Below are positions 304 through 35,536 of a stretch of DNA of 43,755 bases, piece after piece. Source of the stretch: Verrucomicrobiota bacterium. Lineage in GTDB: Bacteria > Verrucomicrobiota > Kiritimatiellia > SS1-B-03-39 > UBA6053. A program made the translations under genes and the position numbers. The DNA lies in the NCBI GenBank assembly GCA_020831635.1, contig JAFIGC010000033.1, positions 1 to 43,755 of the forward strand, in the 5' to 3' direction. Within the stretch, counting starts at the first letter, position 1. The number at the start of each line of letters is the position of its first letter. The notes beneath the pieces were generated by a model that saw only the letters and a list, made by a program, of their open reading frames with translations, had not been told where the DNA came from and did no database searches.

Positions 304-396
304 TTTCCGACGCTCGGAAGACCTCCGAAAAATCTTTCCGAGCTTCGGAAGGTTCGTGAAAAAACTATCCGAACGTCGGAAGACTTTTTTTCAACC
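304..396. repeat. 31 bp tandem repeat with dyad core, three units
   Basis: Three units start at 304, 335 and 366. Each begins with a dyad of the form TTCCGAnnnTCGGAAG (the third is TATCCGAACGTCGGAAG) and ends in an A-rich or T-rich tract; the third ends in seven Ts. The same period and dyad recur upstream of zwf at 33811-33903. A 31 bp spacing is close to three helical turns, so the dyads would lie on one face of the DNA. Confidence 0.75.
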
Positions 397-3928: not shown

Positions 3929-4285
3929 GTACGCTCCCTAAAACTTCTGGGCGGGGATGTCTATGAAAAAACGGATGGTTCTATCGCAAATGAATGCGAA
4001 TTCAGGATGTATTGGGGCTTGGGTTTTGAGAAAAGAGACCACGGATGCCATTCGGCAGACCACGGATGGGGATTGGGAAATGGAATCAGAGAAAAACACT
4101 GAATTTTCAAACGCAGAAGTCCGTCCACAACCGGATCGAAGAAGAACCAACGGATGGCTTTGCCGTCCAAAGGATATGAAAAATCCGTCCGCAACCGAAT
4201 CGAAGAAGGGCCAACGGATGGCTTTGCCGTCCAACGGATATGAAATCTTTTGCAAAAAGATGGGAAGTCGTCATGAAGTAAGTTC
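3929..4285. other. Intergenic region with ACGGATG repeats
   Basis: The two flanking genes diverge from this region. It holds a 64 bp tandem duplication (4120-4247) and, before it, loose copies of ACCACGGATG (around 4030-4070). Open frames of about 105-118 codons on both strands consist mostly of this repeat sequence and are not called. Confidence 0.55.
4120..4247. repeat. 64 bp tandem duplication
   Basis: Two adjacent units start at 4120 and 4184. Both run TCCGTCC-CAACCG-ATCGAAGAAG, then CCAACGGATGGCTTTGCCGT and end in GGATATGAAA, with only a few differences. Each unit contains an ACGGATGG element like those just upstream. Confidence 0.85.
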
Positions 4286-8944: not shown

Positions 8945-8997
8945 GCGCCTGCCCTTAAGCCGAAATCAAAATTTTCCAAGGCGGGATTTGGATTTGC

Positions 8998-9107
8998 GAT
9001 TACGATTAAGATTAAGATTAAGATTAAGATTAAGATTTAGATTTAGATTAGGATTACGATTAGGATTAGGATTAGGATTAGGATTACGATTAGGATTAGG
9101 ATTTAGG
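8998..9107. repeat. Hexanucleotide array (GATTAN), 18 units
   Basis: About 18 consecutive 6-base units of the form GATTAN fill this stretch between hrpA and rnpB. The sixth base is ordered in blocks: C, then five A, two GATTTA variants, then mostly G with C at two positions. The same family runs in the opposite orientation at 33705-33764, and a two-unit remnant (GATTAAGATTGG) follows rnpB at 9548-9559. Any frame through it gives dipeptide repeats and no real protein. Confidence 0.9.
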
Positions 9108-9146
9108 AGTGAGCGTGGGATTCGGAGGGATTTCAGGTGAATGTCA

Positions 9147-9175: not shown

Positions 9176-9181
9176 GGGAAA

Positions 9182-9539
9182 TGAGCGGCAGTCAGTCGCC
9201 CCGGGTTTCGGCCCGGGGAGGAAAGTCCGGACTCCATAGAGCAGGATGCCTCGCTGTGAAGGCGTGGAACCCCGTGTCAATCGCGGGGGATGGAAAGTGC
9301 CACAGAAAACAAACCGCCCCGCGCAAGCGGGGCAAGGGTGAAAAGGTGGTGTAAGAGACCACCGGGTCCGCGCGAAAGCAGGACCGCATGGTAAACCCCA
9401 TCCGGAGCAAGATCACATAGGGAACGTCAGAGGCGGCTCGTCTCGCCCGCTTCGGCGGAACGTTCCGGGTAGATCGCATAGACACATGACTGACCCGCGT
9501 GCTGGTCACGCGGACAGAATCCGGCTTATCGCCGCTCAC
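9182..9539 (+). ncRNA. rnpB: RNase P RNA, bacterial type A
   Basis: This is the catalytic RNA of RNase P, which matures tRNA 5' ends. The conserved core is visible: GAGGAAAGTCCGGACTCC (about 9219-9236) with AGAGCAGGATGCC after it, GGAAAGTGCCACAGAAA (about 9292-9308) and the 3' element ACAGAATCCGGCTTAT near 9514-9529. The terminal P1 helix is TGAGCGGC (9182-9189) paired with GCCGCTCA (9531-9538), followed by CTTTTTT, which can act as the terminator. The length of about 358 bases is normal for type A. Confidence 0.96.
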
Positions 9540-9591
9540 TTTTTTATGATTAAGATTGGTTTCGGGGCTGATTATGGGGTATGGCGTGCAC

Positions 9592-30911: not shown

Positions 30912-33539
30912 ATGAATGCAGAAAAGTTTACTGAAAAAACGGTTGCGGCCTTGTCGGCCGCGCAAGAAATGGCCCGTACTCGGGAACATTCCGAGTTGGG
31001 GTTGGCGCATGTGTTGTTGGCATTGTTGGAACAGCCGGAGGGTCTGGTGACTCCGGTACTGTCCCGTGCGGGCGCGGATGTGCCCGGATTGAGGGAAAGT
31101 TTGACACGGGAACTGGAGCGATTGCCCCGGGTGGCGGGCGAGGCCGTGCAGCGGGGCATGAGTCGGGAGGTGCGGGAGGTCCTGGATGCCGCCGAGAAGC
31201 ATATGCGGCGGATGAAAGATCAATATTTGAGTACCGAACATCTTTTGTTGGCGATTCTGGAGCAAAAAACGGGGCCGGTTCCCGAATGTCTGCGCCGTCA
31301 TGGCGTGGATCGTGCCGCCGTTGAAACCGCAATTCAATCCATGAGAGGAAAACAAACCGTGAGCGATCCCCATCCCGAAGACAAATACAATGTGCTTGAA
31401 AAGTACGGGCGCGACCTGACGAAGGACGCCCGGGAGCAGAAGCTCGATCCGGTCATCGGACGCGACACCGAGATCCGTCGGGTCATCCAGGTTTTGTCCC
31501 GCCGCACCAAGAACAATCCGGTGCTCATTGGCGAGCCGGGGGTGGGCAAAACCGCGATCGCCGAAGGGTTGGCCCTCCGCATTGTCGCGGGGGACGTGCC
31601 GGAAAGCTTGAAAGACAAGCGGGTCATCGCCCTCGACATCGGCTCCATGCTGGCAGGCGCCAAATACCGCGGGGAGTTCGAGGACCGGTTCAAAGCCTTC
31701 ATCAAAGAGGTGATGGACGCCGAAGGCGAAATCGTCCTGTTTATCGATGAGCTGCACACGCTGGTGGGCGCGGGCGGCGCCGAAGGGGCGGTGGATGCCT
31801 CGAACATGATCAAACCGCCCTTGGCCCGGGGGCAGTTGCGCTGTATTGGCGCCACCACCTTGGACGAATTCCGCAAACACATCGAAAAGGACCCGGCCTT
31901 GGAGCGCCGCTTTCAGCAGGTGTTGGTGGACGAGCCGACGGTGGAGGACACCATCGGCATCTTGCGCGGACTCAAGGAACGCTACGAGGTTCACCACGGC
32001 GTGCGCATTCAGGATGCGGCCCTGGTCTCCGCCGCCACCTTGTCCCATCGCTATATTTCCGACCGTTTTCTGCCCGACAAAGCCATTGACCTCGTGGACG
32101 AGGCCGCGTCGCGGATTCGCATGGAAATCGATTCCAGGCCCACGGAAATCGATGAAGTCGAGCGCCGGGTGACGCAATTGGAAATCGAACGGGAAGCGTT
32201 GCGCAAAGAGAAGGACGACGACTCCAAGCGCCGGCTCCAAGAGTTGGAATCCACCTTGGCCGAACTGAAAGAGCGCAGTGCCGGCATGAAAGCCCATTGG
32301 CAGCAGGAAAAGAAACTGATTGGCGACATTTCCGCTTTGGGCGAAGCCCTGGATCTGCTGCGCGCCCAGGAAGCACAAGCCAAACGGGAGAATGACTACA
32401 GTAGGGCCGCGGAAATTCTCTACGGCAAAATCCCCGCCACCGAAAAACAATTGGAGGCGGCCAAAGCGGAGCTGGCCGAATTCCAAAAAGAAAAAAGCAT
32501 GCTCAAACAGGAGGTGGACTCCGAGGACATTGCCGAAATCGTTTCCATGTGGACGCATGTGCCGGTCAGCAAATTGTTGCAGGGTGAGCGCGAGAAACTC
32601 CGGAATATCGAGGAAAATCTCCGCAAGCGCGTGGTGGGGCAGGACCGGGCCGTGGAAGCCGTGTCCGCCGCCGTGCGTCGGTCGCGTTCCGGCTTGCAGG
32701 ATCCGAATCGTCCCATTGGCTCCTTTATCTTCCTTGGACCCACCGGCGTCGGGAAAACCGAGCTGGCCCGGGCCTTGGCAGAGTTTTTGTTTGATGACGA
32801 GCAAAACATGGTTCGCATCGACATGTCCGAATTCATGGAAAAACATGCCGTCAGCCGCCTGGTCGGGGCCCCTCCCGGATATGTCGGCTATGACGAAGGC
32901 GGATATTTGACCGAGGCCGTGCGCCGCAAGCCGTACAGTGTGCTGTTGTTCGACGAAATCGAAAAAGCCCATCCCGATGTCTTCAACATCCTTCTGCAGG
33001 TGTTGGACGACGGACGCCTGACCGATGGTCACGGACGCACCGTGGATTTCACGAACACCATACTGATCATGACCTCCAACATTGGCGGGGCCCTGATCCA
33101 CGAACGTTTGGGACAGCTTGATCCCGATGACACCACCGGATTCGACAAGCTCGAAAACGAGGTGTTTCTGGAGCTACGGCGTCAGTTCCGTCCCGAGTTT
33201 CTCAACCGCGTGGACGAAACCATCGTCTTCCACAGCCTGCGACCGGACCAGCTCACCCACATCGTGGAGTTGCAATTGGCGCGGGTCGCCCGTTTGCTCA
33301 AGGATCATCGCATTGAATTGACCTTGAGTGACGAAGCCCGGGAATTGCTGGCCAAGTTCGGATACGATCCCGCCTTCGGGGCGCGCCCCCTGAAACGCGC
33401 GATACAGAAACTCGTCGTCGACCGACTCGCCGAAGAACTGTTGGACGGCCATATCACCGAAGGCCAAACCCTCCGCGGCGAGCTGGACCCGGAGAACGCC
33501 GAGCGATTGGTTTTTCAGGTGACGTCCGATGTAGGATGA
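30912..33539 (+). CDS. clpB: ATP-dependent chaperone ClpB
   Basis: The 875-residue AAA+ disaggregase rescues aggregated proteins together with DnaK. An N-terminal repeat domain (1-145) is followed by NBD1 (Walker A GEPGVGKT 207-214; Walker B LFIDE up to 280), a coiled-coil M-domain (about 405-530) rich in Glu/Lys, and NBD2 (Walker A GPTGVGKT 609-616; [10 protein letters not shown]; sensor-2 [10 protein letters not shown]). The long M-domain and the absence of a ClpP-binding IGL/F loop separate ClpB from ClpC/ClpA. AAGGAG lies upstream of the ATG. Confidence 0.94.
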
Positions 33540-33579: not shown

Positions 33580-33626
33580 CCCGGGGTGTGGAGAGCCTCG
33601 TGAAACTCGGCCCTCCACACCCCGGG
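33580..33626. repeat. 14 bp stem palindrome after clpB
   Basis: Bases 33580-33593 and 33613-33626 (CCCGGGGTGTGGAG and its complement) form a perfect 14 bp stem with a 19-base loop 41 bases after the clpB stop. It may end transcription, but no T-tract follows, so a repeat element is equally likely. Confidence 0.6.
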
Positions 33627-33704
33627 CTAAGACCGTTTGCCACTCCGGGGCATCTTCACCATTGTCCCCAGCTTTGTCTGAAACTTTGCCCTACATGGCC
33701 ATCC

Positions 33705-33764
33705 CTAATCCTAATCCTAATCCTAATCCTACTCCTAATCGTAATCGTAATCCCAATCGTACTC
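33705..33764. repeat. Hexanucleotide array (CTAATC), 10 units
   Basis: Ten consecutive units of CTAATC with variants GTAATC, CTACTC, CCAATC and GTACTC. It is the reverse complement of the GATTAN array at 8998-9107 and shares its GATTAG and GATTAC variants. Confidence 0.88.
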
Positions 33765-33810: not shown

Positions 33811-33903
33811 TTCCGACCGTCGGAAGGAATTTTTTCGAGTGTTCCGAGCCTCGGAAGAAGTTTTTTCTGGTGTTCCGAGCGTCGGAAAACTCGGTTTTGG
33901 CAC
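33811..33903. repeat. 31 bp tandem repeat with dyad core, three units
   Basis: Units start at 33811, 33842 and 33873, each opening with TTCCGAnnnTCGGAA. The first two dyads are followed by AGGAATTTTTTC and AGAAGTTTTTTC, like short terminator hairpins. It is the same repeat type, phase and unit number as at 304-396. Confidence 0.8.
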
Positions 33904-33929: not shown

Positions 33930-33958
33930 TTGACATCCGCCGTTCCTATGGCAAAGGC
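33930..33958 (+). promoter_or_regulatory. Candidate promoter of zwf
   Basis: TTGACA (33930-33935) is a perfect -35; 17 bases later the sequence is AAAGGC, a poor -10. The start codon would lie only about 7 bases downstream, so a leaderless mRNA is possible. Confidence 0.25.
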
Positions 33959-33964
33959 AAGCGC

Positions 33965-35536
33965 ATGAGTCGCGTTATCAATATCCATCACGAACCCGAC
34001 ACGGGATCCCGCTTGCCCGAGATCCGGGTCGAACATCCGCTCACCCTTGTCATTTTTGGCGGCACCGGGGATTTGACCCGTCGCAAACTTCTGCCGGCGC
34101 TGTATGCCTTGGCCACGGAGAAGCGGATGCCGGAAGCCTACCGCATCGTGGGGTGCGGACGGCGGGACTACACTTCTGAAAGCTATCGCGATGAAATGCT
34201 GGAGGAAATCAAGCGGTTCCGTCGGGTCGAGGGGTCCGACGCGGATCTCAAGGCGTTTGTGGAGCGCATCGATTATTTCAAGGGCGAGTTGGACGATTCC
34301 GAGGCTTATGACAAGCTGAACAAAACCCTGTCCGACAAAAAAGCCTATCCGACCAACCGGTTGTTTTATCTCAGCACTTCTCCCGAGTTTTTCGGGCCCG
34401 TGATCGGGCACTTGAAAAAATCCAAGCTCATTTATTCGGCCTCGGACCCTGACAAATGGAGCCGGGTGGTGATTGAAAAACCTTTCGGACGCGATTTGGA
34501 AAGCGCCCTGGCGTTGAACCGCGAGGTCTTGCGTCTGCTGAACGAATCCCAAGTGTATCGCATCGACCATTATCTCGGCAAGGAAACCGTGCAGAACATA
34601 TTGTCGTTTCGCTTTGCCAACACCATTTTCGAACCGTTGTTCAACAACCGTTTCGTGGACCACATTCAGGTGACCGCCAGCGAAACCGTGGGCATGGAAT
34701 CGGGGCGGGGGGCTTATTTTGATCAGGCCGGCTCGCTGCGCGATATGATGCAGAACCATTTGACCCAATTGCTGTGTCTGGTGACCATGGAGCCGCCCAG
34801 CGGTTTGGCTTCGGACGCGGTTCGCAACGAAAAAGTCAAGGTCCTGCAAAGCATCCGGGTGCCCAAGTTGGACGATGTGGCCAAAAACATGGTGCGGGCC
34901 CAGTATGCGGCGGGTCAGGTGAATGGCAAACGCGTTTCCGCTTATGTGGACGAGGAGCGCGTCCCCGGCGATTCGCGGACCGAAACCTATGTGGCGGCCA
35001 AATTTTTCATCGACAACTGGCGTTGGTCCGGCGTTCCGGTGTTGTTGCGGACCGGCAAGCGCATGGCCAAAAAGCAAACCAGCATTACCGTACAATTCAA
35101 AAAACCGCCCATGCGTCTGTTTCGGACCGTGGCCTGTTCGGATGATATTTGCGATTTGACCGAAACCCAGCCGAACGTCCTGACCTTCCGTATTCAACCC
35201 GACGAAGGCATTTCCCTGCATTTCGCCACCAAACGTCCCTCCATGCATATGGTGGTGGAGGATTCCGAATTGAATTTCGGGTATGCGGACAACTATCGGG
35301 GAACGCTGCCCGAGGCCTATGAACGCTTGCTCATGGACGTGATGCGCGGGGACGCCACTCTGTTCACCCGTTCGGACGAAGTGGACGCGGCCTGGCAAAT
35401 CATGGACCCGATCCTCAGAGGATGGAAAGAACGGGACGTCTCCATTCCCTTGCATTTTTACGCCCCCGGCTCTTGGGGACCACTGGCCGCCGACCAGCTC
35501 TTCCAAAACGAAACCGGCCACTGGCGCAACGAGTAA
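33965..35536 (+). CDS. zwf: Glucose-6-phosphate 1-dehydrogenase
   Basis: The 523-residue enzyme oxidises glucose 6-phosphate with NADP+ to 6-phosphogluconolactone, the entry to the oxidative pentose phosphate pathway. NADP-binding GGTGDLTRRK is at 32-41, and the active-site motif RIDHYLGKE at 199-207. The rest (EKPFGRDLES, LRDMMQNHLTQLL) fits the family. The start at 33965 is chosen because the conserved part begins there; the reading frame stays open upstream through repeats and would add 101 non-conserved residues. gnd and pgl are not in the window. Confidence 0.95.
   Translation: MSRVINIHHEPDTGSRLPEIRVEHPLTLVIFGGTGDLTRRKLLPALYALATEKRMPEAYRIVGCGRRDYTSESYRDEMLEEIKRFRRVEGSDADLKAFVERIDYFKGELDDSEAYDKLNKTLSDKKAYPTNRLFYLSTSPEFFGPVIGHLKKSKLIYSASDPDKWSRVVIEKPFGRDLESALALNREVLRLLNESQVYRIDHYLGKETVQNILSFRFANTIFEPLFNNRFVDHIQVTASETVGMESGRGAYFDQAGSLRDMMQNHLTQLLCLVTMEPPSGLASDAVRNEKVKVLQSIRVPKLDDVAKNMVRAQYAAGQVNGKRVSAYVDEERVPGDSRTETYVAAKFFIDNWRWSGVPVLLRTGKRMAKKQTSITVQFKKPPMRLFRTVACSDDICDLTETQPNVLTFRIQPDEGISLHFATKRPSMHMVVEDSELNFGYADNYRGTLPEAYERLLMDVMRGDATLFTRSDEVDAAWQIMDPILRGWKERDVSIPLHFYAPGSWGPLAADQLFQNETGHWRNE

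Follow-up and report, generated by a model that had tools for sequence, protein, structure and literature searches.

NrdR operators consist of two 16-bp boxes set 15-16 bp apart (spacer range 14-17 bp) and are bound by paired NrdR dimers in a helix-phase-dependent manner (PMC12051234), indicating that such a layout of paired palindromes is workable as an operator. Sites scattered over the chromosome are known for Noc (about 70 NBS) and SlmA (24-52 SBS), both depleted around the terminus (PMC4726725), while the RefZ motifs of Bacillus are near-palindromic, conserved in position and probably occupied by two dimers together (PMC6657595). Short palindromic repeats in many copies also make up the intergenic REP, BIME and REPIN elements, and the uptake sequences of Pasteurellaceae and Neisseriaceae are short over-represented motifs that accumulate in place, both within and between genes.

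Here we describe an array of palindromes found between clpB and zwf in a 43,755-nt stretch of DNA (the window), and compare it with these systems. The zwf array consists of three perfect TTCCGA-N3-TCGGAA dyads with start-to-start spacings of 31 and 31 bp (Table 1). A first-pass annotation of the window had correctly recognized the three phased dyads and their start, but had placed the end of the array at 33903, 16 bp beyond the last dyad; the gap of 27 bp that it gave between this end and the candidate -35 of zwf is correct. It had also noted a second array (copy 1) with the same number of units. The period of 31 is indeed common to both, but the third dyad of copy 1 carries one mismatch. Both arrays are recovered independently by Tandem Repeats Finder, while an Rfam search of the window gives no match at the zwf array.

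Table 1. Coordinates of the two dyad arrays and of the features flanking the zwf array (positions in the window).
Feature	Position	Strand	Description
Copy 1 of array	305..381	.	Dyads 305-319, 336-350 and 367-381; period 31
clpB, left neighbour	30912..33539	+	Pfam Clp_N, AAA_2, ClpB_D2-small
Dyad 1 of zwf array	33811..33825	.	TTCCGACCGTCGGAA, exact match
Spacer 1 of zwf array	33826..33841	.	GGAATTTTTTCGAGTG, 16 bp, with T6 run
Dyad 2 of zwf array	33842..33856	.	TTCCGAGCCTCGGAA, exact match
Spacer 2 of zwf array	33857..33872	.	GAAGTTTTTTCTGGTG, 16 bp, with T6 run
Dyad 3 of zwf array	33873..33887	.	TTCCGAGCGTCGGAA, exact match
TTGACA, candidate -35 of zwf	33930..33935	+	From sequence; outside the array, 27 bp after 33903
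zwf (glucose-6-phosphate dehydrogenase), right neighbour	33965..35536	+	Pfam G6PD_N, G6PD_C

Several other features of the window were observed. A strong GC-rich inverted repeat at about 33583-33627 (arms GGGGTGTGGAG and CTCCACACCCC), located directly after the clpB stop, is a stronger candidate for a terminator than the dyad array is, but lacks a T run behind it. Two hexamer runs, GGATTA (8984-9108, ~20 copies) and CCTAAT (33704-33758, ~9 copies), are apparently intergenic simple repeats, the former adjoining a bacterial class A RNase P RNA on the plus strand (9180-9544). At 4120-4245, a 64-bp unit occurs twice in tandem, with the copies 91% alike.

The zwf array represents an element made of paired 15-base palindromes, which has ~150 copies and occurs chromosome-wide, even inside essential genes. 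The source genome (G000; 6.0 Mb in 308 contigs) contains 364 perfect dyads, compared with about 0.3 expected from base composition and 0 for a reversed-pattern control. When 14-19 bp were permitted between dyads, 167 pairs spaced at 31 or 32 bp were found in this genome (control 0). The earlier view that repetition at unrelated loci is not due to chance is thus borne out, and the genome search that it proposed for arrays with a 31-base period is strongly positive. Start-to-start distances between perfect dyads, counted at loci largely chosen around pairs, are 31 (72), 32 (21), 62 and 93 in G000, and 31 (21) and 32 (19) in the complete genome G008 from another genus, with no other distances in either; for G000, context and spacing describe sampled loci rather than a whole-genome scan. 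Almost every dyad belongs to a pair or a short array with a spacing of 31 or 32 bp. Lone dyads are rare. Of the six in the sampled G000 sequence, four are accompanied by an imperfect partner at one of these two distances. The pair is the unit of the element.

The chromosomal distribution of the pairs was studied in G008, where the GC skew reverses at 0.45-0.66 Mb and again near 2.9-3.0 Mb, positions taken as the origin and terminus. The 49 pairs are dispersed around the whole chromosome and include sites at both ori and ter, among them those at 2.72-3.09 Mb around the terminus switch. In three tests on this one genome, spacing is more even than expected at random for the 26 pairs of the 31-bp class (CV 0.50, P=0.0002) and, less strikingly, for all 49 pairs (P=0.02), while the 32-bp class by itself does not reach significance (P=0.08). 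Like NBS and SBS, the dyad pairs are short palindromic sites that number in the tens and are dispersed around the chromosome, but they span the terminus, around which NBS and SBS are depleted, and form strict 31/32-bp pairs, which NBS and SBS do not. They likewise differ from the matS sites of MatP, which are confined to the Ter macrodomain. RefZ motifs are similar as near-palindromic chromosomal sites with conserved position and likely dimer-pair binding, but number only five, lie near the origin side and are not strictly paired with a second palindrome. One 32-bp pair of G008 (568641; L310 2142-2188) is located before nrdBA, beside the DnaA-box-like TGTGGATAA and near a GC-skew switch, and its surroundings are possibly the origin neighbourhood.

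The two spacings differ in their gene context, as judged from gene calls made with our own codon-usage script rather than an annotation. Among sampled G000 loci, 27 of 29 32-bp pairs lie inside genes, whereas 54 of 63 31-bp arrays are intergenic; the other nine are called coding, mostly near a called start, and may therefore reflect start-site errors. Classification of all 49 pairs of G008 gives 19 coding and 4 intergenic pairs for the 32-bp spacing (19/23 coding), and 9 coding and 17 intergenic pairs for the 31-bp spacing (9/26 coding), placing about half of the sites of this genome inside genes. A strict rule by which 31 bp is intergenic and 32 bp coding is therefore rejected, being strong in G000 but a tendency only in G008, and the presence of both spacings in G008 genes suggests that the sharp split is a feature of G000 or its genus. 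The split fits a frame lock, in which coding sites are unable to shift by 1 bp, with few of the G000 31-bp arrays compared with G008. Coding pairs translate as FRxSE...S(D/E)xR(K/N) and also in two other frame arrangements, and the use of all three arrangements argues that it is the DNA, and not the peptide, that is conserved.

The spacers carry a further signal. The 72 31-bp spacers of G000 follow a loose directional consensus, GACTTTTTTCCAAGGC (8.1 bits, compared with 1.6 for shuffled spacers), and 81% of them contain AAAA or TTTT, while G001 has another spacer style and favours the loops TGA/TCA. Across genomes, A/T runs mark the 31-bp spacers and not the 32-bp ones. They are found in 20 of 26 31-bp spacers but 6 of 23 32-bp spacers in G008 (P=0.0005), and in 9 of 21 compared with 4 of 65 when the coding sites of all genomes are considered (P=0.00025). 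A-tracts are slightly overwound. Together with the A/T runs as a mark of the 31-bp class only, this suggests twist compensation, and it is plausible that a one-base-pair difference in length is offset by spacer twist so that both bound dimers would face one side of the DNA.

Most 32-bp pairs occupy the native sequence of conserved genes (carA, ileS, a kdtA-like gene and PBP2) and involve no insertion. The CarA protein aligns with E. coli CarA without gaps across the dyad site, and the PBP2 alignment at its site differs by few residues, not 16. In-frame insertion, first hinted at by the occurrence of 32 bp in genes and 31 bp between them, is rejected by these alignments and by that of CarA among the relatives. 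The same carA codons carry a perfect pair in five genomes of two genera (G000, G002, G003, G007 and G008), while G005 and G010 have one damaged dyad, and G001, G004, G006, G009 and G011 lack a full pair. The length of the site is identical with or without the pair, with no indel, and the spacer codons differ silently among carriers. Of 28 G000 coding sites, 11 are found at the same codon position in G008, including those in carA, ileS, the kdtA-like transferase, PBP2 and an FAD oxidoreductase, and none of the 15 same-codon site groups identified across genomes combines 31 with 32 bp. Outside the arms, agreement at third codon positions is only ~0.4 for these common sites, so the sharing of sites across genomes needs selection on the DNA. 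Arm synonymous sites are conserved in 75 of 75 cases, a figure that is biased and not used as proof because both sites of each pair were picked for perfect dyads. Pairs within genes appear and disappear through point substitutions, and their spacers drift in the meantime. Intergenic arrays are not kept in place between the sampled genomes, suggesting that their individual positions matter little.

The strict spacing of about three helical turns, the perfect symmetry, the selection on DNA within enzymes, the occurrence in every context, and the restriction to one family with apparent losses together point to a pair-binding protein acting at the chromosome level. Our preferred reading, to which we assign a probability of roughly 55%, is that the dyad pairs are composite operators for a putative dimer-of-dimers DNA-binding protein with a chromosome-level role. 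Each TTCCGA-N3-TCGGAA pair, at 31 or 32 bp, would form one composite operator for a sequence-specific protein that would place one dimer on each palindrome, with the two dimers touching across three helical turns on the same DNA face, and arrays of three and four dyads would lengthen the row of dimers. The sites are scattered wherever the sequence permits, genic or intergenic, and such dispersal suggests that the target of the protein is most likely the entire chromosome. Its action might lie in nucleoid anchoring or bridging, segregation, or division control, rather than in the control of single genes such as zwf.

Local control of transcription, in which the pairs would serve a large regulon as NrdR-like operators, with the zwf array controlling zwf, is considered unlikely. 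Two palindromes 31-32 bp apart do have the geometry of NrdR boxes (PMC12051234), both systems having two palindromes of 15-16 bp about three turns apart (spacer 16-17 bp here), and a pair is found 216 bp upstream of the nrdB open frame in G008. However, the dyad differs from the NrdR box consensus ACACAATATATTGTGT, and the pairs occur in tens to hundreds of copies, many of them within genes, as are about half of those in G008. Divergent intergenic regions, where promoter sites would be expected, are not favoured (9/47). The target genes have no common function, and a search for neighbour genes common to arrays across genomes, as a clue to autoregulation, gave nothing consistent, such genes recurring rarely. 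At zwf itself, the array is missing upstream of the gene in 11 of 11 relatives, including the closest one, G002, which nevertheless keeps the sequence TTGACATCCGCCGT. The link to zwf proposed in the first-pass annotation is therefore not supported, a zwf operator is unlikely, and the array most likely has no role specific to zwf or clpB. As to NrdR as the binder, the indirect evidence speaks against it as far as tested: NrdR is encoded as a single copy in 13 of 13 genomes checked, including the site-free G006, G011 and G012, and the nrd and nrdR promoters retain near-canonical NrdR boxes.

An origin from mobile elements, either REP/REPIN-like or in-frame palindromic, spreading through the genome by self-copying appears similarly improbable. 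The hundreds of copies, the mostly intergenic location of the 31-bp class, the common degenerate spacer consensus and the 21 Y1_Tnp (RAYT-like) matches in G000, some of them weak or partial, would fit such elements, as would a few identical spacers at separate loci. The near-identical 31-bp spacers at separate places in G000 (C120:19973/22202; C74:2747/C196:13088; C149:23725/C153:1768) are probably recent duplications of some intergenic arrays. Mobility is nevertheless contradicted for the coding copies, which align without gaps to their homologues and come and go by substitution, and spacers have diverged while the dyads are perfect. No enrichment of arrays at RAYT genes is seen among the loci sampled: with 10 of the 21 RAYT matches inspected directly, three arrays lie within ~1.5 kb of a RAYT gene (at 2 of 10 sampled RAYT loci, plus one near the C20 RAYT), about the chance level of ~1.9. 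The lack of insertion, the presence of the same codon sites in another genus, and the gain and loss by substitution lead us to reject a transposon. Of the earlier description of the array as a "mobile or regulatory element", the fixed phase and plausible binding by a protein are borne out, while mobility is not supported because the coding copies are not insertions.

Molecular drive by biased DNA uptake, with the pair as an uptake signal, is very improbable: the in-situ origin, the genic and intergenic spread and the lineage restriction do resemble those of uptake sequences, but at one pair per 35-90 kb their density is far too low for tagging uptake fragments, and the known uptake sequences of Pasteurellaceae and Neisseriaceae are non-palindromic (PMC1939737). 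Tandem bidirectional terminators insulating genes such as clpB and zwf have as little to recommend them. The first-pass annotation had envisaged tandem terminators setting zwf apart from clpB, from a T6 after two of the dyads. The T6 runs are real, terminator-like scans match here and convergent regions are somewhat over-represented in pooled genomes (26/76), but the runs begin 4-5 bases past the stem and not directly behind it, their strand is random with respect to transcription (17 sense, 14 antisense), single hairpins are weak (-6.5 to -9.5 kcal/mol), copies lie in the middle of carA, ileS and other genes, and the convergent bias, when judged against length, falls short of significance in the larger G000 sample (P=0.11). 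The dyads thus lack the stable GC-rich stem followed directly by a U run on the transcribed strand that marks intrinsic terminators. Known DNA uptake sequences are also far denser than the dyad pairs.

Returning to the proposed pair-binding protein, its sites are limited to a single family. Pairs are present in G000 and nine relatives of a 58-genome sample. Three congeneric species have 88, 59 and 122 pairs, and six further family members have 1 to 61, while pairs are absent from the family member G006 and from every sampled genome outside the family. Among 388 sampled genomes of the phylum, they are confined to this one Kiritimatiellota family. A scan of 84,980 named genomes yielded at least 91 stretches, the matches listed all being titled PVC group, Verrucomicrobia or Kiritimatiellota/Kiritimatiellae, while a search of phage sequences gave no match. 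Within genus g3, nearly all pairs are gone from G005 (3 pairs) and G010 (1 pair), compared with 17-49 in their sister species, as would be expected if the binding protein had been lost there. The range of 0 to 167 sites within the family fits a non-essential function.

To our knowledge, chromosome-wide binding systems (Noc, SlmA, MatP, ParB) have been described in few lineages only. Our literature search found none described for Kiritimatiellota, and none of five common dyad strings is printed in any of the papers searched. That the present system is a previously undescribed one is a tentative suggestion. The strict code, two palindromes of 12 specified bases each at 31 or 32 bp, provides a ready bait for the binding protein, for which G005 and G010 could serve as natural knock-outs. 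The carA and ileS sites are open to silent-mutation tests, and the contrast in A/T runs between the 31- and 32-bp classes offers natural variants with which the role of DNA twist in an operator is directly testable. It is possible, though we hold it with less confidence than the operator reading itself, that this one family of Kiritimatiellota possesses a private chromosome-organizing system, which would read palindromes three turns apart, trade spacing against A/T runs, and, in more than one genus, impose a DNA code at fixed codon positions of conserved enzymes.
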